This document shows positions 7,070 through 49,982 of a DNA stretch of 64,000 nucleotides, piece after piece. The notes under the pieces were generated by a model, which searched no databases, was not told the DNA's origin, and saw only the letters and a list, made by a program, of their open reading frames with translations. Origin of the DNA: Bolinopsis microptera (lineage: Eukaryota; Ctenophora; Tentaculata; Lobata; Bolinopsidae); assembly GCF_026151205.1 (NCBI RefSeq), contig NC_087072.1, positions 20,240,103-20,304,102 on the forward strand. Reading direction: 5' to 3'. Each line of letters begins with the position of its first letter. The stretch's first letter is position 1. The position numbers and the translations under genes were made by a program.

Positions 7070-10000
7070 TTATTATCAAACATGTCAATCTTACAAATGT
7101 CAACAATCCTAAAATGATTTAGAACCTAAACGTGATCCTTTGTAAGATTATATGTCCCAAAAGTCAAATTGACTTGTACTCAAGTATAAAGTCGAACAAT
7201 TTACTCCAATAACCACGGTTACTAGCAAGTTCTCTCAAATGAAGAATATCATCATACGACTCCAGCAAGATGAAACGCTTCCAGAGGTCAACCTTCAGGT
7301 GGTGCAGGAGGTTACGTCTGTGAGCCCCGAGTCTACCAACTTCACTACACATCTCGACAGCAAAGCACAGCGCAGCTTGAGCTGGTGATCTTTCATCGCT
7401 CCTCAGTATGTGTCCTAGCATCTTCCACCTAGATAACTCAGCACGCTCAGACATAGGGGTAGAGTTACTCTGTTTGTATAGGGTATCTTTGGACATCATA
7501 CTGCGTGGCCAGCTGACATTCATGATCTTTCTGAGGTGGTTACGGTGACATGCATCTAGTTTGTCCCAGTACGATTTAGGCATTCCCCAGCAACTAGAGT
7601 TATACATGAGGATAGATACTACTTGGGCCTCATAGACCTTCAGCTTCTTCTGTAGGGGGATCTTACTCTGGCACCAGACCTTCTTGAAGTTCTGGAATGC
7701 TACATTGGCTAACATGATTCTTCTGGTGACATCTTTCCTACTTTCTAGCAGAGAACCCAACAACTTGCTACTGCACCATTCTTCATTCATTCTAAGGGGT
7801 TTACCATCATCCATGACATCATCTTTCCCAGCTATGTAGATGTGTACAAACTCTGTCTTTGATTCATTAATATTCAGATTCCACTCTTTGAACACCTTAG
7901 TAGCGACAGGGAGGAGGGCTTCTAGAGCATCTTTGTCTTCACCAAGATAGTCGATGTCATCAGAGTAGGCATCTTCTTCAGGCATGCCACTAGGACTAAT
8001 AGGAGGGGTTGGGCGCAGCGTCACGGCACGCAGGTGGTAGCAGGCACCAGCTAGAGTGATTGTGAAACAGAGGCCTGAAACACTATCACCTTGGGGTCCT
8101 CCATTGGTGCTGATGAATTCAAGGGAGGTAGCGTTGTTGACTCGCACCTTGATCTTGGTGTTGCTCAGGAGGAATCTCACTAGTCTGATCTCATCTCTTG
8201 TGCACCCTGCGTCCTCTAGGAGGTTGAGCACAGTCTGCCTACTGATAGTATCGAAGGCACTGGACATGTCTAGGCCCATCTTGTGGAAAGACCACTCTCT
8301 TTCTTTTACGATGCTGATCAACATACGGTGACACCATACCAGGTCTCCACAGCTTCTCTTCTGCTTGTAGGCAGCTTGCCATGGACCTGTGTAAGCGTCT
8401 ACCTTTGCTTCAATTCTCCTGAGTGTAATGAGGGATAGCAGCTTACGAGCACAGTTACATAGTGTCAGGGGTCTGAGGCTTTTCAGTTCACCAGGAGTCT
8501 TGCCAGGCTTTTGAAGAGGGGTGATGAAACATTCTCCGACAGCGTCAAGGAACAGGTTCTCTTCAAAGCAGGTGTTGATGATTTTGGCGTAATGGACACA
8601 TAGCGCACTCCCACCATACTTGAGGAGCTCATTGGGGGTATTGTCAGGTCCATTGGCTTTGCCGTTCTTGAGGCGTTTAGCAGCGGTTTTTACCTCATAT
8701 TCTGTGATAGGGCAGTCGAGGGGAGAAGGGGGACCTTCAAACGGATCAAGGGCAGGTTCATCTCCAGTCAGCTGTTCTTCATACCAATCGCGGAGTACTT
8801 CAGCTTTAGCGAGGTCTGTACCAATGGGGTACCCATCCTTATTGTGGACAACTATAGGCTTTGTCTCTTTGGTCTTAGCTAAGGATCTCACAGCTTCGAA
8901 CATTTGACGCGTGTCGTCAGTTGATGAAATTTCTTCAGCTAACTGGTCAGCCTTAGCACACTCTAGCTCCTTCAGTCTCTTTTTGATGTCTTTACCGAGC
9001 TTATTTCTCCGTCCTCGCAGTACAGAGCTATCACAGGGCTTGTTGGTGCTTGCCAGGGCGAGGCGTATATCGTGTCGTTCTGCGACTAGGGCAACAACAG
9101 TAGGGTCATTAGAGAAGAAGCACTTATTCTTAGCCTTCCTGTAGCCTAGGGTCTCAGCAGCTGACTTATGAACTTCACCCAGTACTACTGCAAAGTCCTT
9201 GTTGGGATCACCTGAGGGTATTACAGTAGAAAGTCTACTAGCAATGTCATGTTCATACATTCGTTTACAATCGGGGTCTGATGTGAGCCTGCGAGTGTCA
9301 AACATTTTAGGACGTTTAGGAGCTTTAGCGTAGAACAGGGGGCGTTTAGACAATTCAATCGTACATATTACAAGCCTATGGTCAGAGCTAAACACCATAC
9401 CGTTGTGCGACCTAGCATCTCTGAGCAGACATTTACTTCTTCTTTTACAAAGAATATAATCTATCTGAGTAAACACTTTACGCTTTTTACCAGACTGACC
9501 TTTGACATTAACCAAACCCTCGTAAGTGGTCCGATGACTCGCACGGTGAAGGAAGGCAGTATTAGCAGCAAACAAGTCGTTTCTACACATGAAGTTGAGA
9601 AGGTAGTGACCGTTGTGATTCCTTTTACCCATACCGTGCCTGCCGACATAATCTGACACACCATTTACATAGTCTGAGTCATCAAGCTTACCCAGCCTAC
9701 CGTTGAAATCTCCCATCACAAACAACTCGTGTCTTGAAGGAACGACAATAGCTGAACTGACTTGCTTGTACAATTTCCTGACAATTTCTGGTCTGAGTTC
9801 TGATTTGGTGTTGGTTGGGCAGTACACATTGACGGCTCTAAACATGACGGGTTCACCGTGCTTTACAGGCAATCTGAAATCTATCCACGCAACACGGTCA
9901 CTAACACGATGATATTGAACAATGTACGGTACTAGCCGCTTTGATACCACAAACCCCAGTCCTGCATAACAGGCATCCTTTTGTTCAATGATAATCAACT

Positions 10001-10276
10001 TATTGCCACAGGGTAACATTGCTTCAGATGGCTGAGTGATCTTAGTTTCTTGAAGGGCTATAACGTCTAATTTATATTGAGTACAGTCACGTCCTAATAT
10101 ATGTTGGTCTACTTCTTTGCTCAGCCCACGAACATTGAATGTTGCAAGGGCTAGAATGAGTGAGAGAGGGATCAACTTAGGGACGATGAGTAGAGGGTTA
10201 GATGCTGCAGCAGGGGTAATCTGTGTCTCCCTGCTTCTGCTGATGTGCCTGACGTCATCACTGGTCATTCCACCTA
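7070..10276 (-). mobile_element. Full-length compact LINE with 12-bp TSD
   Basis: The same 12 bases, ataatggttaaa, flank the element at 7058-7069 and 10277-10288. The unfilled target is seen once in the opposite palindrome arm. Transcribed from the minus strand, the element has only about 8 bp before its ATG and about 94 bp after its stop. Single ORF, very short UTRs and an APE-type endonuclease fit RTE-like non-LTR elements, though the clade is tentative. Complete length, intact ORF and clear TSD suggest a young insertion. Confidence 0.85.
7164..10268 (-). CDS. LINE ORF: APE endonuclease + reverse transcriptase, 1034 aa
   Basis: One uninterrupted frame encodes the enzymes for target-primed reverse transcription. 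The endonuclease at about residues 40-300 has FNVRGL (Asn45), LQETKI (Glu74), GDFN (Asp187, Asn189) and SSDH (295-297), the usual catalytic set of apurinic endonuclease-like domains. The reverse transcriptase at about 500-800 has MGLDMSSAFD near residue 664, GGPQGDSVSG, and YSDD near 767. YSDD replaces the common YADD but keeps the catalytic aspartates. A C-terminal thumb-like region follows. There are no stops or frameshifts, so the protein could be functional. Small frames on the other strand are shadows. Confidence 0.9.
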   Translation of the reverse strand: MTSDDVRHISRSRETQITPAAASNPLLIVPKLIPLSLILALATFNVRGLSKEVDQHILGRDCTQYKLDVIALQETKITQPSEAMLPCGNKLIIIEQKDACYAGLGFVVSKRLVPYIVQYHRVSDRVAWIDFRLPVKHGEPVMFRAVNVYCPTNTKSELRPEIVRKLYKQVSSAIVVPSRHELFVMGDFNGRLGKLDDSDYVNGVSDYVGRHGMGKRNHNGHYLLNFMCRNDLFAANTAFLHRASHRTTYEGLVNVKGQSGKKRKVFTQIDYILCKRRSKCLLRDARSHNGMVFSSDHRLVICTIELSKRPLFYAKAPKRPKMFDTRRLTSDPDCKRMYEHDIASRLSTVIPSGDPNKDFAVVLGEVHKSAAETLGYRKAKNKCFFSNDPTVVALVAERHDIRLALASTNKPCDSSVLRGRRNKLGKDIKKRLKELECAKADQLAEEISSTDDTRQMFEAVRSLAKTKETKPIVVHNKDGYPIGTDLAKAEVLRDWYEEQLTGDEPALDPFEGPPSPLDCPITEYEVKTAAKRLKNGKANGPDNTPNELLKYGGSALCVHYAKIINTCFEENLFLDAVGECFITPLQKPGKTPGELKSLRPLTLCNCARKLLSLITLRRIEAKVDAYTGPWQAAYKQKRSCGDLVWCHRMLISIVKEREWSFHKMGLDMSSAFDTISRQTVLNLLEDAGCTRDEIRLVRFLLSNTKIKVRVNNATSLEFISTNGGPQGDSVSGLCFTITLAGACYHLRAVTLRPTPPISPSGMPEEDAYSDDIDYLGEDKDALEALLPVATKVFKEWNLNINESKTEFVHIYIAGKDDVMDDGKPLRMNEEWCSSKLLGSLLESRKDVTRRIMLANVAFQNFKKVWCQSKIPLQKKLKVYEAQVVSILMYNSSCWGMPKSYWDKLDACHRNHLRKIMNVSWPRSMMSKDTLYKQSNSTPMSERAELSRWKMLGHILRSDERSPAQAALCFAVEMCSEVGRLGAHRRNLLHHLKVDLWKRFILLESYDDILHLRELASNRGYWSKLFDFILEYKSI

Positions 10277-10465
10277 ATAATGGTTAAAATACAAAGTAAA
10301 AAGATTTTCCTCGATGGGCCGGCATTCGCAACCGCGAAACGTTTTGAGTACGACAAACGATGACACCACCACCAGCCGTTAATTGATAAGTCCATGGGTG
10401 ACGGGATAAAGTTAAAGTAAGATGTGTAATTTCATATTGCCTATCACCTATCACCTAAGTTACTT

Positions 10466-23102: not shown

Positions 23103-26100
23103 TTACACAAAGTACTCTCGATACGACGTGCCGATATCTCGGTAGTCCATCCTAACGTCGTCCTCAGACCCAGACTCACATCCGTCCCCCGTCATTGCTT
23201 TGTCCTCGTGACCTGGGCGAGAGGGACTGCCCTCACATAGCTGATCTTCCAGTCGTCTCCTAACCACTCTAGGTTCAGCCTCTGTCTCCATGGCAACAGG
23301 ATCTGAAGAAGATCACGAAATTTAGTGACAGTTGTAAGAGGTTTATAATTTTAGAGATTGTAGCTTGTATTTATGAGCGTGATAGAAATTTAGAAATTAT
23401 TTCAGTGTTACTTTTAATCGGATTTGCAGTAAAAGAAAAGATCAGAAATTCACCAAATGCTTCTCTGGATATTGAGTAAATTTCTCAAAATCTAGTAATA
23501 TAATATAACCTAATTAAGCTTTTAAATTAGGCGTGTCGAAAGGTGATAGTAGATATCGTATATAAGATAAATTAGTGGTAGAGATTAGTGGCATATTAGA
23601 TTGGAATGATACGACGCATAATTAGGAGTATTGAGGGATGACCTACTTAATTCTTTGAATGACAGTGGATGAATGTGGAGTCCGATCATCATGAAATATT
23701 TCAATATCATTGCTGTGATCAGGTACAAGTGTGCTATCGCTTTGAACAGGTACAAGTGTGCGATCACTGCAGGCATCACTATAATTATCACAATCAGGAG
23801 TTTCCTCACTCTTATTAGCAACAACTGGCCTTCCACGTAGTTTTCCTGTGATGAAGAAAATGCAGACGATCTTTTAACTAGAATGTTTAGTGACATTTAA
23901 ACAAGAATTTCGCCGCGGTAACACCACGCACGATCAAATTTCCCTACTGCATACAATTTAATTGTTCTACTTTATTGTATCCCAGAGTGGTGTTTGGCGC
24001 ATGTACAATGTATGATGTAATAATCGTTTATATTATATTAGGCGTGCAGAACTTGAAAAATCCTGCGCGCATCTGAGGTGTCGCCGTTTATTTGTGATCT
24101 GTATGTGGTTTGGTTGTAGATCATTTCATACTTTGCGCGGTTTTGTTTCGTGTTAACAATAACGATATGCATATCATGTCACGTCATATAACTGCATCGT
24201 ATGCCAACTTATTGACTGTAATAAAATATGCTGTTTCGTCTTAGTTATTATTTGTATCTAACATAAACTAATACATTTTTATATGTTATATTATGCTTAC
24301 TCGACACATCACAGCACCATCGACTTATCAAGCCTTTTATTTGATATAGGATTCTTTAAAAGCATACCGCAATCTTGATATTACAGTATTACAGTTGCTT
24401 CTTGAATGTAACTGTAAAGTAACTTCTATTCTCAACTATGTATTCCAATGCTTTCTACCATTCAGTGTCGATGAACTGTTAAATAATCAGCCCACAGCCA
24501 CGAGTCAGCTGATATCATAATTCTATTTGTTTTGACTTGCTGAATTTTATCACTCGGTAATTTATTAAGCTTGTTTCACCAAAATAACACTTATATTGAT
24601 GATTATATATAATCCGTTTGTAACAGTCGTCAAGCACCAAAAACTCGTTGCTATGCCTGTAATTAATTAACTCATAACCGGCGTCGCGCGCACAAAATAG
24701 ACTCCTTTTATACACATAATTATAGGGGAGTGGTCTATATTGCGAAGGAGCAGACTTTTGTCATCAACGTAGGACCGTCGGGCCACCTCATATATCCAAA
24801 CCCGATTACTTATTCCCTACGATCTTTTTGCCTTCGGCAAGAGTAGGGAAAAAAATTAGGGTAGATTAGTGTCTACAATTATGTGCCTAATTCCTGTTAT
24901 ATGGGTAGCTAAACAAGGAAGCTGAGAGGCTCCGTACAGACCAACCTAAAGTTAAATCGTACTTTATACTTAGAACATAGCTGTAGATTGGACAGTCTAA
25001 GGTTAGATTCATATATTAAGCCGATGGCACAACTCCAAAAGTTGCCAACACCCATCAACTTTAAAAGAGACCAGAGAAGTTTAACAAGTTATGTGATGGC
25101 TTGAACTTTTCAACTACCTGGCCCAGGAAAATTTTAACGAACAGTCTGATTTTGCCGTCTGTTTTGTTAAAATAAAGCCTATATTTGGTAAATAGGACCA
25201 GATTGTTTATTTAAAAGAACAATTCTCGTGCCCGGGTGAACTGAATATTTCTTACAAAATGAAGAATTCTAGTGATGAGTGAAACTTTTAACCGACGAGA
25301 GACTGTTTTACATGATACTAACCGATAAAACTGGACAAGGAAGTGTATCTGGGGGGACTTGACTGCAACATCTCCAGAACTTTCCGCTTCTGTCCAACAT
25401 TAACAGTAACATCTGACTTCAAAGGAGTACAGGTATTCAGTATTGGGGTTGAATGCAGCTGAGTGCTGTGTAGCAGAGTGCTGTCTAGCTGGGTGCTGTT
25501 CAGAGGTGTGCTGGTCTTACAGGGGGTTTTAGCCAGCCCGGCGAGAGGGTTCTTGTGGAAGGAAAAGGAGTTGGTGATAGAAGTGGTGATAGAGCTGACT
25601 GAAGGTGATGCTGTCGCTTTGGGAGTTGATGACGTCTTGACCTGAAATATGAGTATTGGTTGTTATTATCACACTTTTGTTATCGGACAAAGACTTCTTG
25701 CTTTTGTTCCGGGACAAGCGGGAAATTTTGAGATCGGCCAGATTCAAATCGAGTCTTTGCGCCACCCGCATCAGTGGTTTACGGTTTGGCTATCGCGCGC
25801 GCTGGATGGTGATATTCTATGCTGTGGAAATGGGGGCACAAGCCACCAGTAGATGAATCCATAAATTTGGAACATGGGCACATCGCAGTATTGGCCGTAT
25901 CTGAGTGCTGGGAAGGCTCAGTTCGGTTTTCTAAGATGGATATAGCCGTAAGCTAGGCCTAGGAACCATCAAAAGTCGTATAAAATTACCCATGGAATGA
26001 CCAGAAATGAACGAAAATGAACATTCTTCTCAAAGTGCTCATAATGGTTTGAAATGGGTCGGAAAGTGTTTACATTGGTACTAGGACCACTCAAACCAAG

Positions 26101-29100
26101 TTTGAGAATCACTGCATGTCTAGAACCGATGTGAGGGTGGTTCCAACTTCCAAATTTGATTTTTGTAACCATTTTGGGAACATGGGGACATCGGAGTATT
26201 GGCTGTATTTGAGTGCTGGGAAGCCTCAATTCGTTTTTCTAAGATAGATATATAGTTCAAAGCTAGGCCTAGGAGCCATCAACAGTCGCATAAAATTATC
26301 CAGGTTCATGGAATGAACGAAAATGAGCGAAAATGAATATTTTTCTCAAAGTGCTCAGAATAGTTCAAAATTTATCGGAAGTAGTTCATATTGGTCCTAG
26401 GACCACTCAAACCAAGTTTGGAAATCACTGCACGTCTAGAACTGATGTAAGGTTGTTTCCAATTCTGCCCTAATAGTCCTCCCGAGTATCCAGATTTTTA
26501 GAAAGAAAACCCCAATTCGGTTTTCTAAACAGTTGCGCAAAATCGAATCAAATTGATTGTGTTTATATTGGTCCTAGGACCACTCAAACCAAGTTTGGGA
26601 ATCACTGCATGTCTAGAACCGATGTTACCAATGTTCCAAAATGTTCCAATTTTGGCACAATAATCCTCCTGAGAATCCAGATTTTTGGAACATGGGGACA
26701 TCGAAGTATTGGCTGTATTTAAGTGCTGGGAAGCTTCAATTCTGTTTTCTAAGATGGATATAGGTAAAAACTAGGCCTAAGAGCCATCAAATGTCAAATA
26801 ACATTACCCAGGTTCATGGCATGAACGAAAATGAACAAAAATGAACATAGTCCTAAAAATGCTCAGAACGGTTTAAAATTGGTCGGAAAGTGTTTATATT
26901 GGTCCTAGGACCACTCAAACCAAGTTTGGGAATCACTGCATGTCTAGAACCGATGTTACCAATGTTCCAAAATGTTCCAATTTTGGCACAATAATCATCC
27001 TGAGAATCCAGATTTTTGGAACATGGGGACATCGAAGTATTGGCTGTATTTAAGTGCTGGGAAGCCTCAATTCGATTTTCTATGATGGATATAGGTAAAA
27101 ACTAGGCCTAAGAGCCATCAAATGTCAAATAACATTACCCAGGTTCATGGAATGAACGAAAATGAACGAAAATAAATATTGTCCTAAAAATGCTCAGAAC
27201 GGTTTAAAATTGGTCGGAAAGTGTTTATATTGGTCCTAGGACCACTCAAACCAAGTTTGGGAATCACGGCATGTCTAGAACTGATGTTACCAATGTTCCA
27301 AAATGTTCCAATTTTGGCACAATAATCCTCCTGAGAATCCAGATTTTTGGAATATCGGTTCTAGACATGCAGTGATTCCCAAACTTGGTTTGAGTGGTCC
27401 TAGGACCAATATAAACACTTTCCGACCAATTTTAAACCGTTCTGAGCATTTTTAGGACAATTTTCATTTTCGTTCATTTTCGTTCATTCCGTGAACCTGG
27501 GTAGTGTTATTTGACTTTTGATGGCTCTTAGGCCTAGTTTTTACCTATATCCATCTTAGAAAACCGAATTGAGGCTTCCCAGCACTTAAATACAGCCAAT
27601 ACTTCGATGTCCCCATGTTCCAAAAATCTGGATTCTCAGGAGGATTATTGTGCCAAAATTGGAACATTTTGGAACATTGGTAACATCGGTTCTAGACATG
27701 CAGTGATTCCCAAACTTGGTTTGAGTGGTCCTAGGACCAATATAAACACTTTACGACCAATTTTAAACCGTTCTGAGCAATTTTAGGACAATATTCATTT
27801 TTGTTCATTTTCGTTCATTCCATGAACCTGGGTAATGTTATTTGACTTTTGATCGCTTCTAAGCCTAGTTTTTACCTATATCCATCTTAGAAAACCGAAT
27901 TGAGGCTTCCCAGCACTTAAATACAGCCAATACTTCGATGTCCCCATGTTCCAAAAATCTGGATTCTCAGGAGGATTATTGTGCCAAAATTGGAACATTT
28001 TGGAACATTGGTAACATCGGTTCTAGACATGCAGTGATTCCCAAACTTGGTTTGAGTGGTCCTAGGACCAATATAAACACTTTCCGACCAATTTTAAACC
28101 GTTCTGAGCAATTTTAGGACAATATTCATTTTTGTTCATTTTCGTTCATTCAATGAACCTGGGTAATGTTATTTGACATTTGATGGCTCTTAGGCCTAGT
28201 TTTTACCTATATCCATCTTAGAAAATCGAATTGAGGCTTCCCAGCACTTAAATACAGCCAATACTTCGATGTCCCCATGTTCCAAAAATCTGGATTCTCA
28301 GGAGGATTATTGTGCCAAAATTGGAACATTTTGGAACATTGGTAACATCGGTTCTAGACATGCAGTGATTCCCAAACTTGGTTTGAGTGGTCCTAGGACC
28401 AATATAAACACTTTCCGACCAATTTTAAACCGTTCTGAGCAATTTTAGGACAATATTCATTTTTGTTCATTTTCGTTCATTCAATGAACCTGGGTAATGT
28501 TATTTGACATTTGATGGCTCTTAGGCCTAGTTTTTACCTATATCCATCTTAGAAAATCGAATTGAGGCTTCCCAGCACTTAAATACAGCCAATACTTCGA
28601 TGTCCCCATGTTCCAAAAATCTGGATTCTCAGGAGGATTATTGTGCCAAAATTGGAACATTTTGGAACATTGGTAACATCGGTTCTAGACATGCAGTGAT
28701 TCCCAAACTTGGTTTGAGTGGTCCTAGGACCAATATAAACACTTTCCGACCAATTTTAAACCGTTCTGAACAATTTTGAGACAATATTCATTTTTGTTCA
28801 TTTTCGTTCATTCCATGAACCTGGGTAATGTTATTTGACTATTGATTGCTCCTAGGCCTAGTTTTTACCTATATCCATCTTAGAAAACAGAATTGAGGCT
28901 TCCCAGCACTTAAATACAGCCAATACTTCGATGTCCCCATGTTCCAAAAATCTGGATTCTCAGGAGGATTATTGTGACAAAATTGGAACATTTTGGAACA
29001 TTGTTAACATCGGTTCTAGATATGCAGTGATTCCCAAACTTGGTTTGAGCGGTCCTAGGACCAATATAAACACTTTCCGACCAATTTTAAACTGTTCTGA

Positions 29101-32100
29101 GCATTTTTAGGACAATATTCATTTTTGTTCATTTTCGTTCATTCCATGAACCTGGGTAATGTTATGCTACTTTCGATGGCCCCTAGACCTAGCTTGCAAC
29201 TATATCCATCATTTACAATTATTTTTGGCACTATTTAGAGCTTATTAGGGCAAATAAATGCATGGCACACTTTTGGCACAATTTTGGCACATGTTCCAAA
29301 AATGTTCCAAAAATCTGGATTCATCAACTCCAAGCCACGGCGTCGTTAAGTCTTAATGTTGATCAATCATCGGTATCTTTAGGAAAATATGCCAATTCTT
29401 TTGTCGCGAAGATACCAATAATATCTCAGCACAAATAGAAAATTAAATTTGATTAGACGATATTCCTAAATCAGTTCGTATCGGGATAATTGAACTTACG
29501 TGTAAAAGTTTGGAAATGCTATTGCCAATGTTCCTCCGAGTGCTTTTTGTTCTTATCATTGGCGAATGACTCACATTGTTGAGCTCCATAATATAATGTG
29601 GGTATTCTTTCTCGAACTGAAACATTGTACGCATATATTAACAGGCGAGTCATGTATAAAACTGTCATACGAGTACAATGTACATTATATACGCATATAT
29701 TAACAGGCGGGTCATGTATAAAACTTTTCTGTCATTAAAACCCAGTGACGTGGCAATTTGCATTTCGCAATGATATATGACACATCATTTGCGCGGAAAA
29801 AATGTTGGCACAACACCAACTGGAAGAAAAACAAACAGGAAAACATATAAACTATGCCCAACCCTATAAAATTTTTGGGAGTAAAGTTACAAAATTAAGT
29901 TTTAAACAGGTACCTTTTTTAAGCGTGAATTCTTGTCCTTGCCCTCAGGCATTTGCTGAAATGCCTGAAAAAAGAATACAATTCAGTTTCTGAAGAATTC
30001 CCACGATAGTTCACAAAAAACTACCATAACTTACCATGCATGATAGTTAAAACATATGATTAAAATAACCTCCTGAACAGTTTGTGCTTCCCAAAACTAA
30101 CCGCCCTGTCCGCCAATGAAGCATATCGTTAATAGCCCAACCAATTGGCAATTCATTAAATATGTTAAAAACAGGGCGAGTTGGACCACGCCGGAGAAGC
30201 CGCAGCAACTGCAGCATAACGGATTATCGGAAACATAAAAAAGCTCCACAAGTAACATTTTGTACACTCTGGAACAGTACACACGAGGTACACACTAACT
30301 TTGTATAGCTCTAGGAGGTGCTGTTTAGTTTGGGAATAAACAACATCCTTGTGGAGATCTCCGCTCATCTTGACACAGTTGCTGGCTATTTCCACTGGGA
30401 TCTCCTCGCATGATTCCCCCCTCTGAAGGCGAGCTTGGTATTTGCTCGCTGTCTGTTCCAGATCTCTTGGTACCTATGGCACAACTCTGTTAGTGGAAAT
30501 GGACGGAGGTAAAAATAGAACATATTTCACATTCCAACTAATAGTAAATGTAACTTTCGAGCAAGTCTGTTATTGTTAAAACATGGAAAACTGGGACGAA
30601 ACAGCCACTGGCGGGGAGAGACAATTGAAATAGTACAGCTAGGTCTCATCAAGATCTGTCAACAAAGTATATCTTACACCCAGTTTGGTCCCAGTGTGGA
30701 TATACCAGACATGTACAGCCCCAGGGGTGTATCATCAATCATGTACCATTAGACGGACCCTCCGTTTAAATACAGGTGTGGATATCATCAGATTAAGCTA
30801 TTATTTATAGACTGAATGTTTCTAATTTTATCAGTCTATAATATCATGTCCTATCTTAAGGTCTAGATTTATTTAGACCTTAAGATAGGTCTAAATAATA
30901 GTGGCTATATTAAACCTTTAAGTCCTACATTATTAGCGTCGAGATATCCGCGATAATAGCACGGCTTGACACGACTTCTTTATTTAATCTCTTGCTTTGT
31001 TAAACGTTTTGTTTAATCCCACATGAATAATTAACAAGACACGAGTCTGACGCTCTACCAGGCAGCTTGCAATCCAGCCAGCCAATTAAAATACACTGAA
31101 GTCAAATATAAAACAATTACCCTACACTTCTCAGCTTTACACGGATCAATCTAGCTGCCCATCTTGGTCTGGCTCTATGATTTAGTTAGGTTGGGTTTAA
31201 CTTGGAGACTTTGTATATAACAGTGAGCAAGTGTTGAGAGTATGCGCAGTATGTCCAGGAAACAATCTCCTGGATCAGAGAGAGGGAGCCCTGGAGCACT
31301 TGAACCCTACAGTGTTATATAACAGATAGTGTGCCCTACGTCTATAGCAGAGGGCACGGATGTGTGGCTTCCTCACTCGTACATATATATTGTACCGGGG
31401 ACGTTTCTTGCACCGCAATTATGTACAGTGTGGTGATGATCTATATTTTGACAGGAACTAACAACTCTGATTCTATGAATTCGGACCAAACTAGGGTTTA
31501 CAAAAATTTCAAGTTATGATTTCAAAAATGTAATTTTACAAAAATGCCGTTCATGATCAAAATGTGTATGTTATTGTGTAGCAGCATCGCTATAAATTGC
31601 ATGGTTGAAATCTGTAACAAATTTATATGTAATTGCAAATTCCAATTTAGATTAAGACACAATCAATGCATCTAAAACATCATCATTACGGACAAACCTT
31701 GAACAAGGTATCCGAATTATTTATAAGATACGCAGTGTATGTCACTAGATCGTCTAGCGGGTCAGACATTGTACTGTTTCCCAGACACATGTTCGCTGCA
31801 GTCTCCATCTGCTTTGATTTTAGGATGTGGGGAGCGAAGATCAACCCCAAGTTGTGGTAGTCCATCAGAGAGTGGGGGTTCAGTGCTACTTCCGAGAGGA
31901 GCATTAACAACATCTGTGGGAAAGAGGGGTGTTAGTCAGAGAGTGGGGGTTCAGTGCAACTTCTGAGAGGAGTATTAACAGCATCTGTGAGAGGAAGTGG
32001 TGTTAGTCAGAGAGTGGGGGTAATTATTGATAACTGATATAAACTAAACTAATTAGCTAATTCCACATATAAATGGCCATCTCTCATTGATAAATTTGGA

Positions 32101-35100
32101 ACTGAATACTAAATGATAACTCCAGTCCTATTATATAATAACAAAGGATTCATGTGAGCAGATTGGTAATACTACTATCTATAGATCAGCTGTGATAACT
32201 ATCTTGTATTATAATCTCTAGAGGAAAGAAACCTGCTGACAGTTCTGTTTCAGGCTATCTTAACCGGAAATTTGATCATTTGATCAACTTGGACCAAGTA
32301 ATGTTTATCAAATCTGTGTATATAGAGAAACTAGTGTCTTTCTTAAACGTGCTTTATATTTCAATTCAATATGGAAAATTCGACTATTAAGCTTTTCTTT
32401 CTTCTCCAATTAAGAATTTTTTTCTTCTCTTAAGAATACAGTATATTTGATCATATTTCAATATACAAAAGCATGAGAAGTTATTGATAATGATAAGCAT
32501 GGCAGTCAAAATGTTGAATCTGCCTGAAAAGGCCGTATACTTATAACAGTTAAAAATGTCAGCCCCGACAGAAAATCCCTAAAAATTGCATACCTTTAGA
32601 AACATCCTGTTTTCCTCCGGTAATAGCAGCAACACAAGTTGTAGACACTTTAACTTCTTTTCCCCGTCCGCTAACTCTGAAAATAACATAATTTTACAGT
32701 TTAGTACACCCCCACATTACTTCATTACACTGTGGACTGTGGGGTGAAAGCTTGTGTAACAATGTAAACATTAGTAAACGTGAAGTTGACTGGCACTGCA
32801 ATGTAGCGCTGGTGCCAGGGCGCCGTTATCTCCAACTAACCCATTAGATCACACCCACAGATTCAGAGCAGGTTACAGGGTTAAGTGAGTCTACATTGGA
32901 GGAGCAGGTAATTGAGGAAACACGTGACTGCATTTAATATCGCTAATTGCGTTACTATTTTATAATACATTCACACAGACTCAAGCCATTTTTTGGGAGA
33001 AAAGTACATGTCTTTTTGTGGAAATACCTGTACAAAACGTTGTGGAATTTTATGCAGCAGTAATATTAGGAATGTGAAGTTGATAGATTTAATTATGGAA
33101 GAGAATGCAAGCTAAAAATTAGCATCAGAGATTACAATGCATATCATAATTTAAGGAATGCAAACGTGTAATTATTGATCAATGATCCCAATCTGAAATA
33201 TTACATTTTACACATCACGCACCTCACGCACCTCCCGATCACCTCACGATCACCTTACTTAAGACTGCTATTTATAATACCCCTGACTAAGAACATGATT
33301 AAATCTGAAAAGTCGTACATTTTAAATTTATCTCCCTAGAAAAATAAGAATAAAGATCTGCACATCCGGTAACTGTAATTATAGATAGAAAAATACATTG
33401 ATATCGAACAATAAAGATAGTTCAGAATCTCAACTATCACGTACTAGCGATCTCGATGTGAATAGGAATGTGTTTTTCACACAGTAGAGGTTCGGGCAGC
33501 TCAGCAACATACTGCTTCAGTACGGACGCTGCATCGTGGACTGTAAACTCCTCCTGCTCCGACCAATCGATAACGTTACCGTGACTATCCAACAACTTCT
33601 TGATGTCTTTTATACGCTTGTTGGATCCACACTTCCGGAATATTCCCTCGTAGTGCACGTCTGAAGAAGGAGGGACATTAGTTTATAGATTGTAAGAGAA
33701 TTAGATACTTAGAGATTACATAATATGGCTACGCGACAATAAGGTGCCTTGAGATTTAGCTACCTAAACAATTAACAAGCAGATAAAGAGATAAATCACC
33801 GTGAGACCCCGTATCTTAGGGGGCCTTAGTGTCGGCCACTGTATTATATAATTAACAAATGGGGGTGAGATTAATTGTGCAGAAAGAACAGCGAGCTGGT
33901 ATGCAGGACCGTGGGTTATTTTATTCTATGGACAAAGATATACTATATACCAGGTATGTTTTGTTATTTTAATTTTTTTTAAAGAGCAAGGAATACGCTG
34001 AAAGTATTTTGTTAGGCACGAGTTTAAATTTCTTATCATTTTCGTGGTATTCCCGCGAGATTTTCTATTAAAGTGTAATCTGAGTCCAAACAACAGCTCT
34101 CAAAACGTCATTACAGCTGTAACGGTGTTTGTAGCAATGTTATAATATCGGCTGTAATGTTTTGCGGAACAAGTCTTCACATTTTGAAAATATTGGTGAA
34201 TCTACTTTAAATGCTGTCTAAGAAATATAATAATATAACAATACATTTTAAAAGGAATAGAATTGACAGAAGACGTCCAAGTAATGAATCAGGATCCCGG
34301 GTCCTAATGATAGAACTTCTCGAGCTATTAAGGGGACCGGGGGTTTTAATGAAGACCCCCCGGCCCCCCCCCCCCCCCCCTTAGGGAACCGGGTATCTAG
34401 GGGGTATCAGCTAGAGTAGGAATGTGTAAGATGTTAAATATGTCCCAAATTATGCGCTAACTCCGCCAAGTAGTCGGGTTTGGATAAATAAAAAATAAAA
34501 TGCATTTTCACTAGATTGAAATGCAAATTATAATAAAACAATCTGGTGGATTCGTGTCGTGTTATTGAGTCTCATGATTCAAGTTTCAACAACATAATTT
34601 TTTAATACTTTCAACACTGCTATATAACAAATAATTTGAGATCATAAATACGATGTTGTAACATTGAAATGTTGAGTAATTCCTTTCCTGATAAGAGCAT
34701 TTTTCCTAGTCGCATCAAACGGGATCAATACAAATTTACACAAGAATACATTGCAACCATGCGACTCATATAAACAATATATTCCAATCCGGATTTTACA
34801 CTTTCAACACTACTATAATATGACAAATAATTTGAGAATATGAGTACATGCTACATGCTACATGAAGAGGTCTCCTCCTAGTCGTTGGAGTGGCCTGCAT
34901 CACACACATCTCTTCTAACATGTTCCTCCATTCCACTCGCTTTAAAGTTTAGAGCCAACTGTTTTACTGCATCTCTGCTGATGTTATCGACACCTGTAAA
35001 TTCCGCCGCATCCTCGAGTACACAGGCCATCCAGCCTTTACGGGGTCGTCCTCTCAGTCTCTTTCCATAGTTTGGTTTCCAATCCAGTAAGAAATTGGGA

Positions 35101-38100
35101 AACCGCGTCTCTGGCATTCTGACAACATGTCCGTACCACCTTAGTCTAGCCGCACCGATGAAAGTTTCGATAGACTTAATTCCAGCACGCCTGAGAACTT
35201 CTTCATTGGAGACATGGAAGAACCACTTTATCTTCAAGATTCTTCTCAGGGAGGTCAGATGGAAGACCTCAAACCGTTTCATCTGCTTCTTTGTTGTGTT
35301 CCAAACTTCAGCTCCATATAACAGAATGGTAATAACAGCAGCCTTGTAGATACGGATCTTGGTGGGCGTTCTTATAGTTCGACTGTTCCATATCTTCCAA
35401 AGCTGATGGAACGCACCATTAGCACGCTGGATCCTGATGTCAAGATCTCGGTCAATGGTACCATCCCCACTGATGTTGGCACCAAGATAAACAAAGTTGC
35501 TGACCTGTTCAACAGGTTCTCCCTCCACTGTTAGCTTTATACTGTCTCTTTCGGTGTAAGGTCGCTGGGACGCACACTTGCTGATCGCCATGCATTGTGT
35601 CTTTTCAGCGTTGATCTTTAACGCAGCATAAGAGGTGTAATAAGCTATAAGATCAGTGGACTCTTGTAGCTCTTCTTCAGTATTGTCCATCACTGCCAGA
35701 TCATCAGCGTAGTCACTATCCATGATAACTTTTTCATCTGCACCCTTTAGTTCCTTTTGCAGTACTGCACCATGACTGATTGCCTTGTGAACCTCGGCCA
35801 AAAAGATTCCAAAGTTCAGACAAAAATTAAATACAGGAGGGCCCTGGATATCACCCTGTCCAGTGCCCGAATTAACAGAGAACCAATCAGACAACCAATT
35901 TCACCATTAACCCTGAAAGCACTCATGGTTCCGTTGAAGAATGCCTGAAAGATTCTAAAATATTTCTCAGGAAGTCCATAGTGTCTCATGCTTGACCATG
36001 AGTATGACGTAGAAATGTTTATTTACATTAGAATCTGTCTTCACTGAGTCTATTGCTCAGGAACAATCAGAAATTTTATTGAAAGAAATGTAATAAAATA
36101 TGTCCGGCAAAGCTTTATTTCAATTTCCTAAATTATATAACAATTTACTAATTATATCGGTAATTGATAACAATTAAAATGCAGCTAAATCTCCTCAAAT
36201 AATCTCAGTAAATAAAATCTGTGCCACTGTTACAAACTGAACTTCTTTCTAGTGTTTAGTTTCACCACAACTGATATTATGGAGCTTAAACGTCGCTATA
36301 ATTTAAATTTTAAAACTGTCATATTTTGATTGCTTCAAACTGGCCCTTGTAAAATTTCTATAACGGCCAAATCCTGGCCTGGCACAAAATAATGTCACCC
36401 ATCCGCCTTGCAAAGACAACTAAGGAAGACGGCAGCATTTGTTTATTATGGAAAATAGTCCCACAGAAGACTCGACATTTGAACTGATGAAAACAATAAT
36501 TATATTTTGCACACAATATGATTTGAATATTATGCTGTAACATAATGCAGGAAAATATTCCGGTTTTTTTTTTCATATTATATTAAGCCACCCTAATTTC
36601 GCATGTCCTGCATGTCGATTTTTGCTTTAAACGAATTAAATTTGTAAATCTCCACGATCAGTGAAACATGAGGCTACGTCCAGAATAGATAAATATGCTT
36701 GCAAGATTTCTTATCGTTTTGCTTTACTTAGTTGTTCGCTAAACTTAAGTTGTACACTCGTTCTAAGTAATAATATCATATTTTGCTATTCCGTCTTTAC
36801 AATTATATTATATAATGCGTGATACACTTCTGACAGTGTATCTTTAATAAAATTAATGTTGTTATTTTGAATATTTTCTGATCTCATGAATGGAAAAATT
36901 GTCGGGGGCCGGGACTAAGTTAATGATTCTTCACTGTCCTTAGAACCGAACAAAATTCGATTTTGTAGGCCAGTGGTAAACGTGGTCATTATTCAACTGA
37001 ATCTAAAGCCACGTCCAGGTTGCACTTGTTCATTCCATTTCTTATCGTTTTACTTTTAAATACTCCGAACTAAAGTTTTACACTCGTTCAACTATCTCGT
37101 ATTCTGTTATTCCTTCTTTTGAATTAGATACGCACTTCTCACTGACAATATTCTCAAAAACTTTCTAAAGAATGTTCATTTCGGGCACGTTGAACAAACT
37201 TCGTTAAGCTCCGGTTGGATAATGACCACGTCTAACACCAGGCTTCTACCGGATTCTTTAGAGCTCTAACAGAATTCTAGCCGGCAGCCTGGATTTAGTC
37301 ACAAGTAAATTAGATTAATTATTAGATATATTGCCATTTTTATTATATTTGCCATTCCTTCTAGAGTTCGTTTCTCTGAATTTTATTTTCATTTTGTAAG
37401 GTTGCAGACAGTGCAGTGTGGTTATTGGTGGTGAGATCTTGTCAGGATGGACGTAAGTAGCACTTTTAAAGTGAACATTACAAAATTTCTTTACATTGCT
37501 TACGAAAAATTAGTCGCTGCAGTTATTTATAATTGTGCATTAATTATCATTATGATTTAAGATTCCGAAACAAATTATGCAAGTGAAGCTGTTACTTTTC
37601 TTCCTGCTTTGACATTTGTTTCAGACTGAAGAAAGAAAAGTGGCTGCAACGCAGAAGAGGAACAGGTCGTTCCTGGCAGTATTGTTGGTAGTACTGGTAA
37701 TACTCGCAATAATCATCGTGGTAGTCGTGGTTGTAGAAACCAGGAAGAAAGGCGACAGTATGGCGGTTGCATCTGATAACGATGTCTGTACTAACATTGG
37801 CGCTGATATTCTGAGAAGCAAAGGAAGTGGGGTGGACGCTACAATCGCTGTCTTGCTCTGTTTAGGAGCTGTTCAGCCACAATCTAATGGGATCGGAGGA
37901 GGAGGTTTTATGTTGGTTCATACCAAGGACGATGATAAGGTCATCAATTTCCGTGAGAGAGCCCCGGCTGCCTCAAGTAAAAGTATGTTTAACTCGGATG
38001 AAAACATGGCTAAAGACGGGGGGTTAGCAAGCGCTATTCCCGGAGAAATCCTCGGTTATTGGAAAGCACATCAAAAATATGGCAAATTAAAATGGGAAGA

Positions 38101-46097: not shown

Positions 46098-48410
46098 ATA
46101 TGCAAATGTTAAAACTGAAGCAACCGATATATCTGATCACGATATGGTCAACGTCCTACTCTCCTTCAACCCTGGTGTGATGGAATAGGCCCATGCTACA
46201 TATCTTGATGAAATGAACTTTCGAGCATTAGATTTCAATCAAGCTGATTTTCCCCGACTGAATGAAGTTTTTGAAGCTATTGATTGGGATGAACTGAGAG
46301 ATGCTGGTACGTTCGAGGAATTTCCTGCCAAGTTCACGGATAAAGTACTAAACACGTGCATATCGAACATTCCCAAGAAACGACCTCCAACAGGCAAGCC
46401 TAAGCTCTACAACTCTCTCAGAAGACGGAAGTCTAAGCTTAAAACTCGTCTCTCCGCAGCAAGGTGCGCCGATGACAATGCCCGAATTAAGAAACTTGAA
46501 GACGAGATCGGGCTGGTGTGCTATGAGATAAAGGAGGCCATAGTCAACCATCTCGACCAAGGTGAAAGGAGAGCGGTGGAGCGGATCAAAAGTAACCCCA
46601 AATATTTCTTCTCCTATGCCAAATCATTCTCCAAAGTGAAACACAACATCTCTACCCTCCTTAACGGCAATAAGGAACTAGTAACGGAAAGAACTCGCCA
46701 ACATCCTTCAACAACAGTTCTGCTCCGTTTTCAGCGACCCTAACTGTCCCGACACAGCAGTCCCTACATTTGCGGTACCACCCCTTATCAGTAGAGACAA
46801 TGACATTGTGTTAATACCTGATAGTATCATGAAAGCTATATCTGAAATCAAGCTAGACTCTGCCCCTGGACCCGATGGAATACCAGCTATTCTTCTCAAA
46901 AGGTGTGCTACCAGCCTTAGTGTCCCGATTTATCTTATGTGGTCAGAGTCCATGTCATCTGGTATAGTGCCAAGCTTCTACAAGACGGGTTATGTTTCGC
47001 CACTATTCAAGAAAGGCAGTAGATGTGAAGCTGGAAACTACAGACCTTCCACTTTGACCTCCCACGTTGTAAAAGTGTATGAAAGAGTGGTAAGGAAACA
47101 TATGGTTGAGTATTTGGAAGCCAACAGTCTCTTGACCAATAAGCAGCATGGTTTCAGAGCGAATAGGAGCTGCTTGACTCAAATGCTCGGCCATTTTGAC
47201 GACATCTACGAAGGGTTTACTCGTGGTGAAGATACAGATTCTATATATCTGGATTACGCTAAGGCGTTCGATAAAGTCGACTTAAATCTTCTCATCCACA
47301 AGCTGAAAAAATATGGGTTTCATGGCAAGCTCATAGAGTGGATAAAGTCCTTTCTCTTTGATCGCGAACAAGTCGTGGTGCTTAATGGGGTTCACTCGGT
47401 TATCGCAAAGGTTTTAAGTGGTGTTCCCCAGGGAAGCGTTTTGGGGCCGCTTCTCTTTATCTTGTTCATCAATGATCTAGAACAAGTAGTGGACTCATCT
47501 AGGGTGAGTTTTTTCGCCGATGATACTAGAGTCTCCAAACAGATTGGCTGTTTTGAAGACTGTCAGTTGTTACAAGAAGATATCTATAAGATTCTTGACT
47601 GGTCACGTAGCAACAACATGAAGCTTCACGAGCAGAAGTTCGAACTGTTAAATCACCTTCATAACAGTAAGAGCTCATTCCCCGAGCTACCCTTCTTTGC
47701 CGAAACACTGCGTTACAAAGTATCCAGTCAGGACATACTTTATCCTGTCGAAAACGTCCGAGATCTTGGAGTTATGGTTTCAAGTGATCTTAGCTGGTCG
47801 ACACACATCGGCAACATGGTACCCAAAGCAAGGAGCACGCTATCTTGGGTATTCAGTGTGTTCAAAACTCGTGACAAGACCGTAATGACTACTCTCTACA
47901 AGTCACTAGTAAGAAGCTTACTAGAGTATTGCTGCCCACTCTGGAGCCCTACCAAGGTGACTGAAATTCAGCTGATAGAGGGGGTGCAAAGAACTTTCAC
48001 CAGTCGTATTGGCGGTCTTCAACATCTCAACTATTGGGAAAGACTCGTACAGCTTAAATTGATGTCTCTACAGCGCAGAAGGGAGAGGTATATCATACTG
48101 ATGATGTGGAAGATTCTCCATAATATGGTACCAAACTGCTGTGATATCAAGTTCAAGGTGACCCCAAGACACGGGGATGTAGCTGTCATACCCTCATTGT
48201 CAAAGTCAAGTTCCTTACGCAACCAGTCACTGTACGACAGGTCTTTTGCAGTTCAAGGACCGAAGCTGTGGAACAAAGTGCCTCACACAGTAAAGGCTGA
48301 TTCATCCTTTGACATGTTTAAGTGTAGTTTGTCGAACTTTCTTGCTTTGATACCGGACAACCCTCCGGTCGCTGGCTACAGCTGCAGTTGGTCAAACTCA
48401 CTCAAGTTGC
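46098..48410 (+). pseudogene. Jockey-like LINE, 5'-truncated, nearly complete RT
   Basis: It begins with the end of an APE endonuclease (ATDISDHDMV, 46114-46143), has a TAG at about 46183, then a linker and, after a frameshift near 46700, a long reverse transcriptase frame: SAPGPDGIPAILLK, GFRANRSCLTQM, YLDYAKAFDKVD, GVPQGSVLGPLLFILFINDL, FFADDTRVS, LGVMVSSDLSW, SLLEYCCPLWSP and KLWNKVPHTV. The catalytic FADD is kept. At about 48410 it runs straight into the next LINE without a stop. Confidence 0.85.
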
Positions 48411-49982
48411 CATGGAGTACATCTGCACTTAAACGAATGAGAAAGAATAATGATAAAGCATGGGCTGAGTTTGATATTAATCCATCTGATGTTAATTTTA
48501 GTTATGCAAGTAGCAAACAACATACTTATGAAGTAGCAGAAATTAAAGCTAAAGTTAACTACGAAAAGAAAATAACATCTAATCTGAAGCAGAATTGTAA
48601 GTCTTTTTACTCTTATTTACGAAATAAACGTCAAATTAAATCAAGTGTGGTTTCTTTGGATAGAGGAGATGGTACACGCACAGATAGTTCGACTGAGTCA
48701 GCTGAGGTACTCGCAAGTGCCTTTAGCTCTGTTTTTGTGCGTGAACCACCTGGCCCTCTCCCTAAAACTGAGAATTTAAGACCTGACAATGAGAGTATTG
48801 ATGATATTGATGATATGGAAGTCAGCAGTTCTGATATAAAAAAGCAACTTTTAAAGCTTAACATTTTTAAGAGTTCTGGTCCGGATGGTGTTCATCCGAA
48901 GTTGTTGAAATCGCTAGCTTATGACAACAATTTTGTTGAAGCTTTAACTAAATTATTTCAAAAGTGTTCAGATACAGGATCTTTACCTGCAGTGTGGAAA
49001 TCTGCATCTGTTGTAGCATTGTTTAAAAAGGGTATTAAATCGGACCCCTTAAATTATAGACCAGTTTCATTAACTTGTATTTTGTGCAAAGTGTATGAAA
49101 AGTTGGTGAGAGCACATCATGTATTAAATTTTCTAGAACATCGAATTTCGAGGCACCAGCATGGATTTGTTAAGGGTAAATCGTGTTTATCTAATCTTTT
49201 AGAGACATTTGATGCACCCCGGCGAACGCCGCGGGCTTCATATTGCTGCGCGTGTTAAAACAAATTTTCGGCATAAATTTGTCAGGAGATCGACTGTAAT
49301 TCCGTTTACGAACCTTTTAAAGATATTTGACAGTGCCGATTCTATCCCGTAAAGGATTTTCAATAGTGCCGAGGAAAAATAAAACATCAAATTCATTCAT
49401 CTGAACATTAGTAAAGGTTATAATGATATCAAATCAAGATTTCAAACGCGTACAATCATTAACTCTAATCAAGTATTGTCAACTGTGATTAAAGATCATA
49501 GCAAAGTATGCTATCCTATATGTAAGCTACAATGAGGAAGAAACAGCATTATACAACAGTATTACAATAATAAATATAGATATAATACCAAAATGTAACT
49601 ATTACTGCTAATAAATACAGTTTAAAGATAAACTTATCAAATTTAAAATTGACACGAAACTAATACGCGGTTTATATTAGAATGCAACATAAACACTAAA
49701 CACATCAAATAGAAACAAAAGAAGATATCTCGCACTGTCAGTCATTACATATTACAATTATATAAATAACACCGAAGAACTCATATATCAACAGCTCGAG
49801 TAGCGCACACTACTAGTACTAATCTAGAGTGTCTGACAGTGGCAGGGGAAGCGTCCAAGGTTCGATGCCGCGACCGTGATCTTTTAAACATTTTGTGAAA
49901 GTCGTCTTTGTTTAAGAAGGTCCACTTCCAGTAGCCCATTTTCTCCCCACATAACATTTCTTCATCCTCAGCAAGACCTGTT

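Follow-up and report, generated by a model that had tools for sequence, protein, structure and literature searches.

The window analyzed here is a stretch of 64,000 nucleotides from the ctenophore Bolinopsis microptera (contig NC_087072.1, called C1 below; the window is C1:20240103-20304102). It contains a 3484-bp element (25847-29330) that begins CAGTAGATGAATCC, finishes GGATTCATCAACTC, and has an exact caagccac, read directly, at either flank. The element appears to lie in the last intron of a RhoGAP gene, where it would make up 90% of the intron length. We are confident that it is a copy of a DNA transposon of the foldback type, and a non-autonomous one. Inverted arms made of tandem repeats, target-site duplications (TSDs), and a variable, mostly noncoding middle are all present, and by structure these features place it in the foldback class. 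It is a known kind of mobile element, well bounded, in a new place.

A preliminary description, made from the letters of the window only, had reported 331-bp tandem units that flip in orientation, bounded by inverted ends and caagccac flanks. This anatomy is correct to the base (Table 1). Unit orientation flips near 27352, and the closest mirror arms, of 735 nt each with a spacer of 52 nt, differ at 25 of the 735 positions; alternative pairings of inverted arms reach up to 800 nt. In the minus arm the units at 28008 and 28339 are identical neighbors. The remaining neighboring pairs of minus units have 13, 8, and 11 differences, and the outermost pair has 93.

Table 1. Features of the window copy and of the gene inferred around it (window coordinates)
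Feature	Positions	Strand	Evidence
TSD, left copy, caagccac	25839..25846		Read directly; identical to 29331-29338
Whole foldback element, 3484 bp, without core	25847..29330	+	Both ends, TSDs, and 77 exact left-end matches in the genome
Left end CAGTAGATGAATCCATAAATTTGGAACATG, CAG-type terminus	25847..25876	+	Genome search with 30-base end
Divergent outer units of left arm, 1.9 copies, period 316 bp	25869..26462	+	Tandem Repeats Finder; 80-81% to the 331-bp unit
Left arm, 2.4 units of 331 bp, plus orientation	26559..27352	+	Tandem Repeats Finder (97% matches)
Inversion point, without core	27347..27358		Core here in 28/29 copies read through; junction 26-mer once in genome
Right arm, 5.6 units of 331 bp, minus orientation	27347..29210	-	Tandem Repeats Finder (96% matches) and inverted-repeat comparison
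735-nt inverted repeat, 5′ arm	26559..27293	+	Partner 27346-28080
735-nt inverted repeat, 3′ arm	27346..28080	-	Partner 26559-27293
Right terminal segment, ending GGATTCATCAACTC; reverse complement is a GAG-type terminus	29205..29330	+	Genome-wide matches
TSD, right copy, caagccac	29331..29338		Read directly
Putative intron, 3858 bp	25642..29499	-	Donor ACAC/GTAAGT, acceptor TTTCAG/GT, frame open across the join
Putative coding exon before the intron, 5′ edge provisional	29500..29637	-	Open reading frame and donor site; no Pfam match
Putative last coding exon with stop codon	25318..25641	-	Open reading frame and acceptor site; no Pfam match
Open reading frame with RhoGAP-like segment, taken as the same gene	31689..31931	-	PF00620, E 0.0015; 18.9 bits, short of the 24.5 set as curated cut-off
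Open reading frame with RhoGAP domain segment	33440..33682	-	PF00620, E 1.9e-16, 60.7 bits

The family is dispersed through the genome (264.65 Mb in 232 contigs were searched). The preliminary description had proposed a search for other copies, and the 30-base left end finds 77 exact matches (44 forward, 33 reverse), against none for a reversed-pattern control. At one variable place these ends read GAATCC in 59 cases and GAATTC in 18 (hand count). The right terminal segment has at least 42 matches, from the 40 scored of 70 candidates; among those listed, 40 span the whole segment and two are 41-bp pieces. A 24-base piece of the 331-bp unit occurs at 324 places (151 + 173), with none for its control.

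We assembled 32 copies with both ends, chosen by strong matches or by their right ends and not at random. Ten copies for which one or both ends were not found or retrieved were left out (C8_7257, C1_17387, C3_14667, C1_9130, C7_17073, C13_7402, C4_6156, C1_3599 [L020], C10_8531, and C2_13826). C2_11387 has two left ends, of which we took the outer, and C11_1453 has three right ends, of which we took the first. Exact 8-bp TSDs flank 25 of the first 30 copies, compared with 0 of 870 cross-copy pairings of ends; two further copies, completed with their right ends, both have exact TSDs, for a total of 27 out of 32. The duplicated 8-mers are private to their sites. In C10_15018 the 8-mer is exact but offset by 3 extra bases, and in C5_7823 it matches at seven of eight positions. 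Since the ends and the 8-bp TSDs recur while the controls give zero, chance is excluded. The proposal that the palindrome is transposable therefore holds, on dispersed copies with private duplications.

We read 29 copies through, counting as a unit any match of 250 bp or more (only the ends of C1_219, C10_11612, and C7_8904 were retrieved, and these are left out). All 29 consist of a plus block followed by a minus block with a single flip, in agreement with the palindrome with satellite-like arms first described from the window. The arms vary from one to 17 plus units and from two to 10 minus units. Between them lies a core, which is long in 17 copies (~960 bp where whole) and short in 11 (from coordinates, ~123 bp in eight copies and ~390 bp in three); only the window copy has none. 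The core of one copy was translated and has no long open reading frame (ORF). The core is in the minority orientation in one of the 17 long-core copies (C9_7474) and in two of the 11 short-core copies (C2_18025 and C3_13670). C9_7474 (L045, C9:7473822-7476959) combines an inverted core with unlike flanks, and is perhaps a recombination product of two copies. A divergent 8-kb copy, C8_15923 (L019, C8:15922300-15932299; TSD gaaatatg), has 17 plus and five minus units, most of them 77%-91% alike to the window unit.

The preliminary description had called the element hAT-like; the features of the element that speak for this label are the 8-bp TSD and the CAG that begins one terminus. The length of the duplication agrees with it; the base preference of the duplication does not. 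The consensus TSD of hAT elements has T as its second base and A as its seventh. Among the 25 exact TSDs of the first copies, T occupies position 2 in five and A position 7 in six, the commonest bases being A (11) and T (13), respectively, so the consensus is not seen. TSDs of 8 bp are also made by P, Merlin, and other superfamilies. Domains for hAT dimerization are abundant in the genome (at least 150 matches, from the 150 scored of 366 candidates), but by eye none of the listed places is inside the 32 copies. Eight inserted stretches were also translated, and by eye their ORFs of at least 90 residues appear retroelement-like, low in complexity, or unassigned, none resembling a transposase. 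A degenerate short-end pattern, with the known family excluded, matches at 14 places against three for the control, and the four of these that were retrieved gave no autonomous copy with these ends (CAGTAGATGAATCC/GAGTTGATGAATCC). A classic non-autonomous element of the hAT superfamily, carrying satellite units and moved by the hAT transposase of this genome, is a serious possibility, though short of a probable one.

The four short-end places were each rejected as partners. C1_5335 and C7_15119 have the sequence upstream of the motif in common, which means that the motif does not mark the end of an element there. At C7_2684 a single weak match resembling the right end lacks matching flanks. 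No match to the right end was found in C11_11143, whose 1336-residue ORF resembles a retroelement by eye.

Two further families share the foldback plan. Family B was discovered beside copy C1_17387, where one copy has ends CAGAAGATGAATCC and GAGTTCATGAATCC, the TSD gccagccg, and arms of 329- and 326-bp units that are 95% inverted over 891 bp. The left end of family B is found exactly at 11 places in the genome, and all three copies read have exact 8-bp TSDs: besides the first there is an 853-bp copy (TSD agcaatac) and a 1336-bp near-palindrome (L073:127-1462, TSD ccaatttc), whose arms of 551 nt are 93% alike with 109 nt between them. The preliminary description had suggested looking for empty sites, and family B provides one. 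Two of three paralogous repeats (C7_17073 and C1_9130) are uninterrupted, with one gccagccg (GCCAGCCG); in the third, C3_14667, the exact uninterrupted string was not found.

Family C (C6:10215200-10225260, of which L065 covers C6:10215200-10225199; one copy read) is built of 184-bp units, with arms of 21.3 and 20.5 copies (99% and 94% matches) that are 96% inverted over 3875 bp. Its ends are GAGAGCACGTTTCC and CAGAAGACGTTTCC, and its TSD, aacagaag, is present at both sides. The 331-bp unit and the family B unit are 62% alike over 454 columns (doubled units compared), and the 331-bp unit has no match to the family C unit on comparison. By their sequences, the satellite units of the three families (331, 326-329, and 184 bp) would be distantly related or unrelated. 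All three have 8-bp TSDs and a CAG terminus at one end with a GAG terminus at the other, from which we infer that they form one clade. We suggest, tentatively and with more doubt than conviction, that this is a ctenophore foldback clade of at least three families with an unrecognized type of transposase, whose arms are satellite nurseries in which arrays grow and homogenize around a flipping core. If this is true, new satellite DNA would be made inside mobile palindromes rather than at centromeres. A dispersed repeat found at three places (L032, L034, and L035; C1:17387340, C1:9131182, and C7:17073659) carries a left end of the 331-bp family with GAATTC, preceded by CATCAGAAGATG, and looks like a chimeric element.

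An 8-bp TSD also fits the P superfamily, and the element might instead be a relative of the P/Galileo group, like Drosophila foldback elements, with a transposase of THAP type to move it. A motif in the 331-bp unit agrees at 21/22 positions with subterminal sequence of the right end (maximum in shuffles, 15), and the internal tandem repeats of Galileo, a Drosophila element of the P superfamily, likewise carry additional sites for transposase binding (as cited in PMC4079207). The described element closest in architecture, Tetris, was compared by its authors with Galileo (PMC4079207). However, the match is only weak for the unit of family B (16/22; shuffled maximum, 15) and at chance level in family C (12-13/22; shuffled maximum, 14-15). 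The profile PF21787 has no match in the genome, although control genomes gave none either, so absence is not implied. We consider a P/Galileo-group origin unlikely. The idea that an end motif in every unit amplifies transposase sites was rejected as a general rule, given its distribution over the three families (331-bp yes, B weak, C no).

The original foldback class comprises the FB elements of Drosophila and the TU elements of sea urchins, which have inverted arms of tandem repeats, as here; their repeats are short, in contrast to the 331-bp unit, and TU elements have 8-bp TSDs. Galileo has foldback-like long inverted repeats and a known THAP transposase, whereas none was found for the 331-bp family in the copies read or in the four short-end places retrieved. 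By plan, the closest described element is Tetris, a foldback transposon of Drosophila virilis; the likeness is one of structure, drawn from published descriptions. In Tetris, as described, ~220-bp tandem units in varying number make up long inverted arms, the middle domain is noncoding, the three complete copies have TSDs of 8-9 bp, and no source of transposase was found (PMC4079207), and the 331-bp family resembles it in all of these: tandem-unit inverted arms, noncoding middle, TSDs in the 8-bp range, and no transposase found. Further points of likeness are a stretch that the Tetris unit shares with the outer domain and units that grow inside the element and vary in number among alleles; in Tetris the units also form arrays of up to 66 copies (PMC4079207). 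Such arrays were not seen for the 331-bp family among the 100 of 324 unit places listed, and the two elements differ further in the CAG/GAG ends and 331-bp units of the window family and in phylum.

The TCAST transposon-like elements of Tribolium castaneum are described as non-autonomous DNA transposons with segments of satellite monomers inside inverted repeats, found near genes and with a predicted hairpin (PMC3411249), all points of likeness to the window copy. According to the same account, their duplication is ACT (3 bp), an arm holds roughly one monomer or less, and the length does not exceed 1181 bp (PMC3411249); the 331-bp family has 8-bp TSDs and up to 17 units per arm. A link to the loop motif of ctenophore chromatin was considered and set aside; promoters at these loops are reported to have many transposon insertions, and the motif is GC-rich (PMC12221973). 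Among the titles and abstracts listed, we found no literature that joins ctenophores with foldback elements or describes the 331-bp family. The family places satellite-armed foldback transposons in an animal lineage that is probably deep.

The lack of a core in the window copy raises the question of an assembly artefact at the inversion point, which the preliminary description had itself put forward. The mirror junction at 27352 would then be false, and the real copy would have a core like its relatives. The 26-mer across the junction occurs once in the genome, allowing up to 2 mismatches, and a junction without parallel might stem from misassembly; the 28 other copies read through all have a core. 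A folded-back read, however, would give near-identical arms, and the mirror arms differ at 25 sites. The sister-family copy at L073:127-1462 is, moreover, also a near-palindrome with little between its arms. Because of the arm differences and this second core-less palindrome, we regard an artefact as very unlikely.

Arrays change in place, as shown by a tandem unit-plus-insert and by the identical neighboring units of the window copy. In C11_14974, a unit with a 2162-bp insert has been doubled in tandem (period, 2432 bp), and the pair is 98.9% alike over 2452 columns, with seven mismatches and one gap; the reading frames of the insert look like the end of a GIY-YIG retroelement. Element ends are repeated too. 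The left end of C2_11387 is doubled, 42 bp apart, and the right end of C11_1453 plus its flank is present in three copies at 176-bp spacing (L002 6154-6506), from which a new tandem array might begin to form beyond the element. We compared 232 full-length units, of which 214 remain when C8_15923 is excluded. In the reduced set, units are at a mean distance of 0.031 from others of their own copy and of 0.039 from those of different copies. For 85 of the 214 units the nearest neighbor belongs to their own copy; when labels were shuffled 200 times, this number averaged 29 and reached at most 45.

The preliminary description had supposed that such elements could seed satellite DNA around the genome. 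The arrays do change in place, but the 100 unit places listed gave no clear case of free satellite. Among the first 100 listed of the 324 unit places, all on C1 and early C2 and counted by hand, 78 are between known left and right ends, 13 are beside one known end, two are in the chimeric repeat, and seven are without a known end. One array, L020 (C1_3599), consists of 5.6 copies of a 323-bp unit, and no ends were seen in the 4.3 kb retrieved. It was rejected as free satellite: a trace of core (48 bp, 83%) persists beside the array, so it is probably a decayed copy. That the window feature is a satellite array inverted by chromosomal recombination, with an 8-bp repeat by chance, accords with tandem 331-bp units at 96%-97% and with the missing ends of the L020 subtype, but it is extremely unlikely given the same ends with private exact 8-mers at 27 of 32 places and the core trace in L020 itself.

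For a non-autonomous foldback transposon, the following course can be envisaged. A transposase supplied from elsewhere would recognize the element ends and move the element; unequal exchange or slippage may lengthen and shorten the arms; recombination between arms may flip the core; and foldback between arms may delete it, which would account for the window copy. The genome holds dozens of copies whose sites are known, most of the copies read having intact TSDs, and in it the step from transposon arm to satellite array should be traceable copy by copy; foldback elements present themselves as a kind of transposon able to breed satellite DNA.

The gene around the window copy is read from ORFs and splice signals. 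An ORF ending at 29500 is followed by GTAAGT, TTTCAG precedes the ORF starting at 25641, and the joined frame is open to the stop at 25318. Without the element and one TSD, the putative intron would be 366 bp long. The ORF at 33440-33682 matches two proteins in PDB at E 6.5e-06, Rho GTPase-activating protein 7 and myosin-IXb. Location inside a gene, as claimed in the preliminary description, is thus supported by the RhoGAP ORFs and the splice signals, and not by the exons that flank the element. The same description had predicted a hairpin in the pre-mRNA, and folding of 26559-28080 (minus strand) gives a very stable one: the minimum free energy is -1295.9 kcal/mol, compared with -361.5 to -389.0 kcal/mol in six 2-mer block shuffles, and the predicted fold has 718 pairs across the center with a longest perfect helix of 176 bp. 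A hairpin of ~730 bp would be expected to form in the pre-mRNA, and it might act as a source of siRNAs or a target of ADAR, as the preliminary description had proposed. The intronic copy would then be a natural test of how the host handles a nearly perfect ~730-bp RNA hairpin in a gene.

Several results weigh against this account of a mobile foldback element in a gene intron, in addition to the unique junction of the window copy and the four short-end places without an autonomous partner. No TSD was found in three of the 32 two-ended copies (C13_10700, C10_13108, and C9_7474). For the 331-bp family, no strict empty site was found, the comparison made with copy C3_216 giving only divergent paralogues: its flanks lie between two repeats of the 184-bp family, the paralogue at C2:17739848, although uninterrupted, does not agree in the TSD, and in the match at C11:7110672 identity is lost before the junction. 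The exons beside the element have no domain match in Pfam. Finally, when C8_15923, which we take to be internally divergent, is included, units within a copy are on average no closer than units of different copies: the within-copy means are 0.043 for adjacent units of the same arm, 0.061 for nonadjacent units of the same arm, and 0.053 for opposite arms, and the different-copy means are 0.049 and 0.053.

Elsewhere in the genome, one glutamate receptor was compared with PDB. For a stretch of its ligand-binding part, the only three matches at E 1e-58 or better are chains of ML032222a, a Mnemiopsis receptor. Whole receptor ORFs score best against kainate receptors of vertebrates, since the ML032222a chains comprise just the ligand domain; these chains appear with 212 bits in one search and are not among the 60 matches listed in another. 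A 128-residue piece of ML032222a is 77% identical to its closest place in the genome, which makes Mnemiopsis itself an improbable source. In the window as a whole, Rfam at its gathering threshold gave no match, and 30000-36000 has no match in a plasmid collection. Positions 1-677 are an impure purine-rich repeat tract of GAG/AGGAC type. Long ORFs with reverse transcriptase domains (PF00078) lie at 7164-10280 (minus strand) and 46685-49255 (plus strand); these are retroelements, probably of non-LTR (long terminal repeat) type. A tandem array with a 52-bp period, 34 copies at 99%, occupies 50445-52216, and the same 52-bp repeat adjoins a family B element at L073:1587-3663 (99% over 506 bp).

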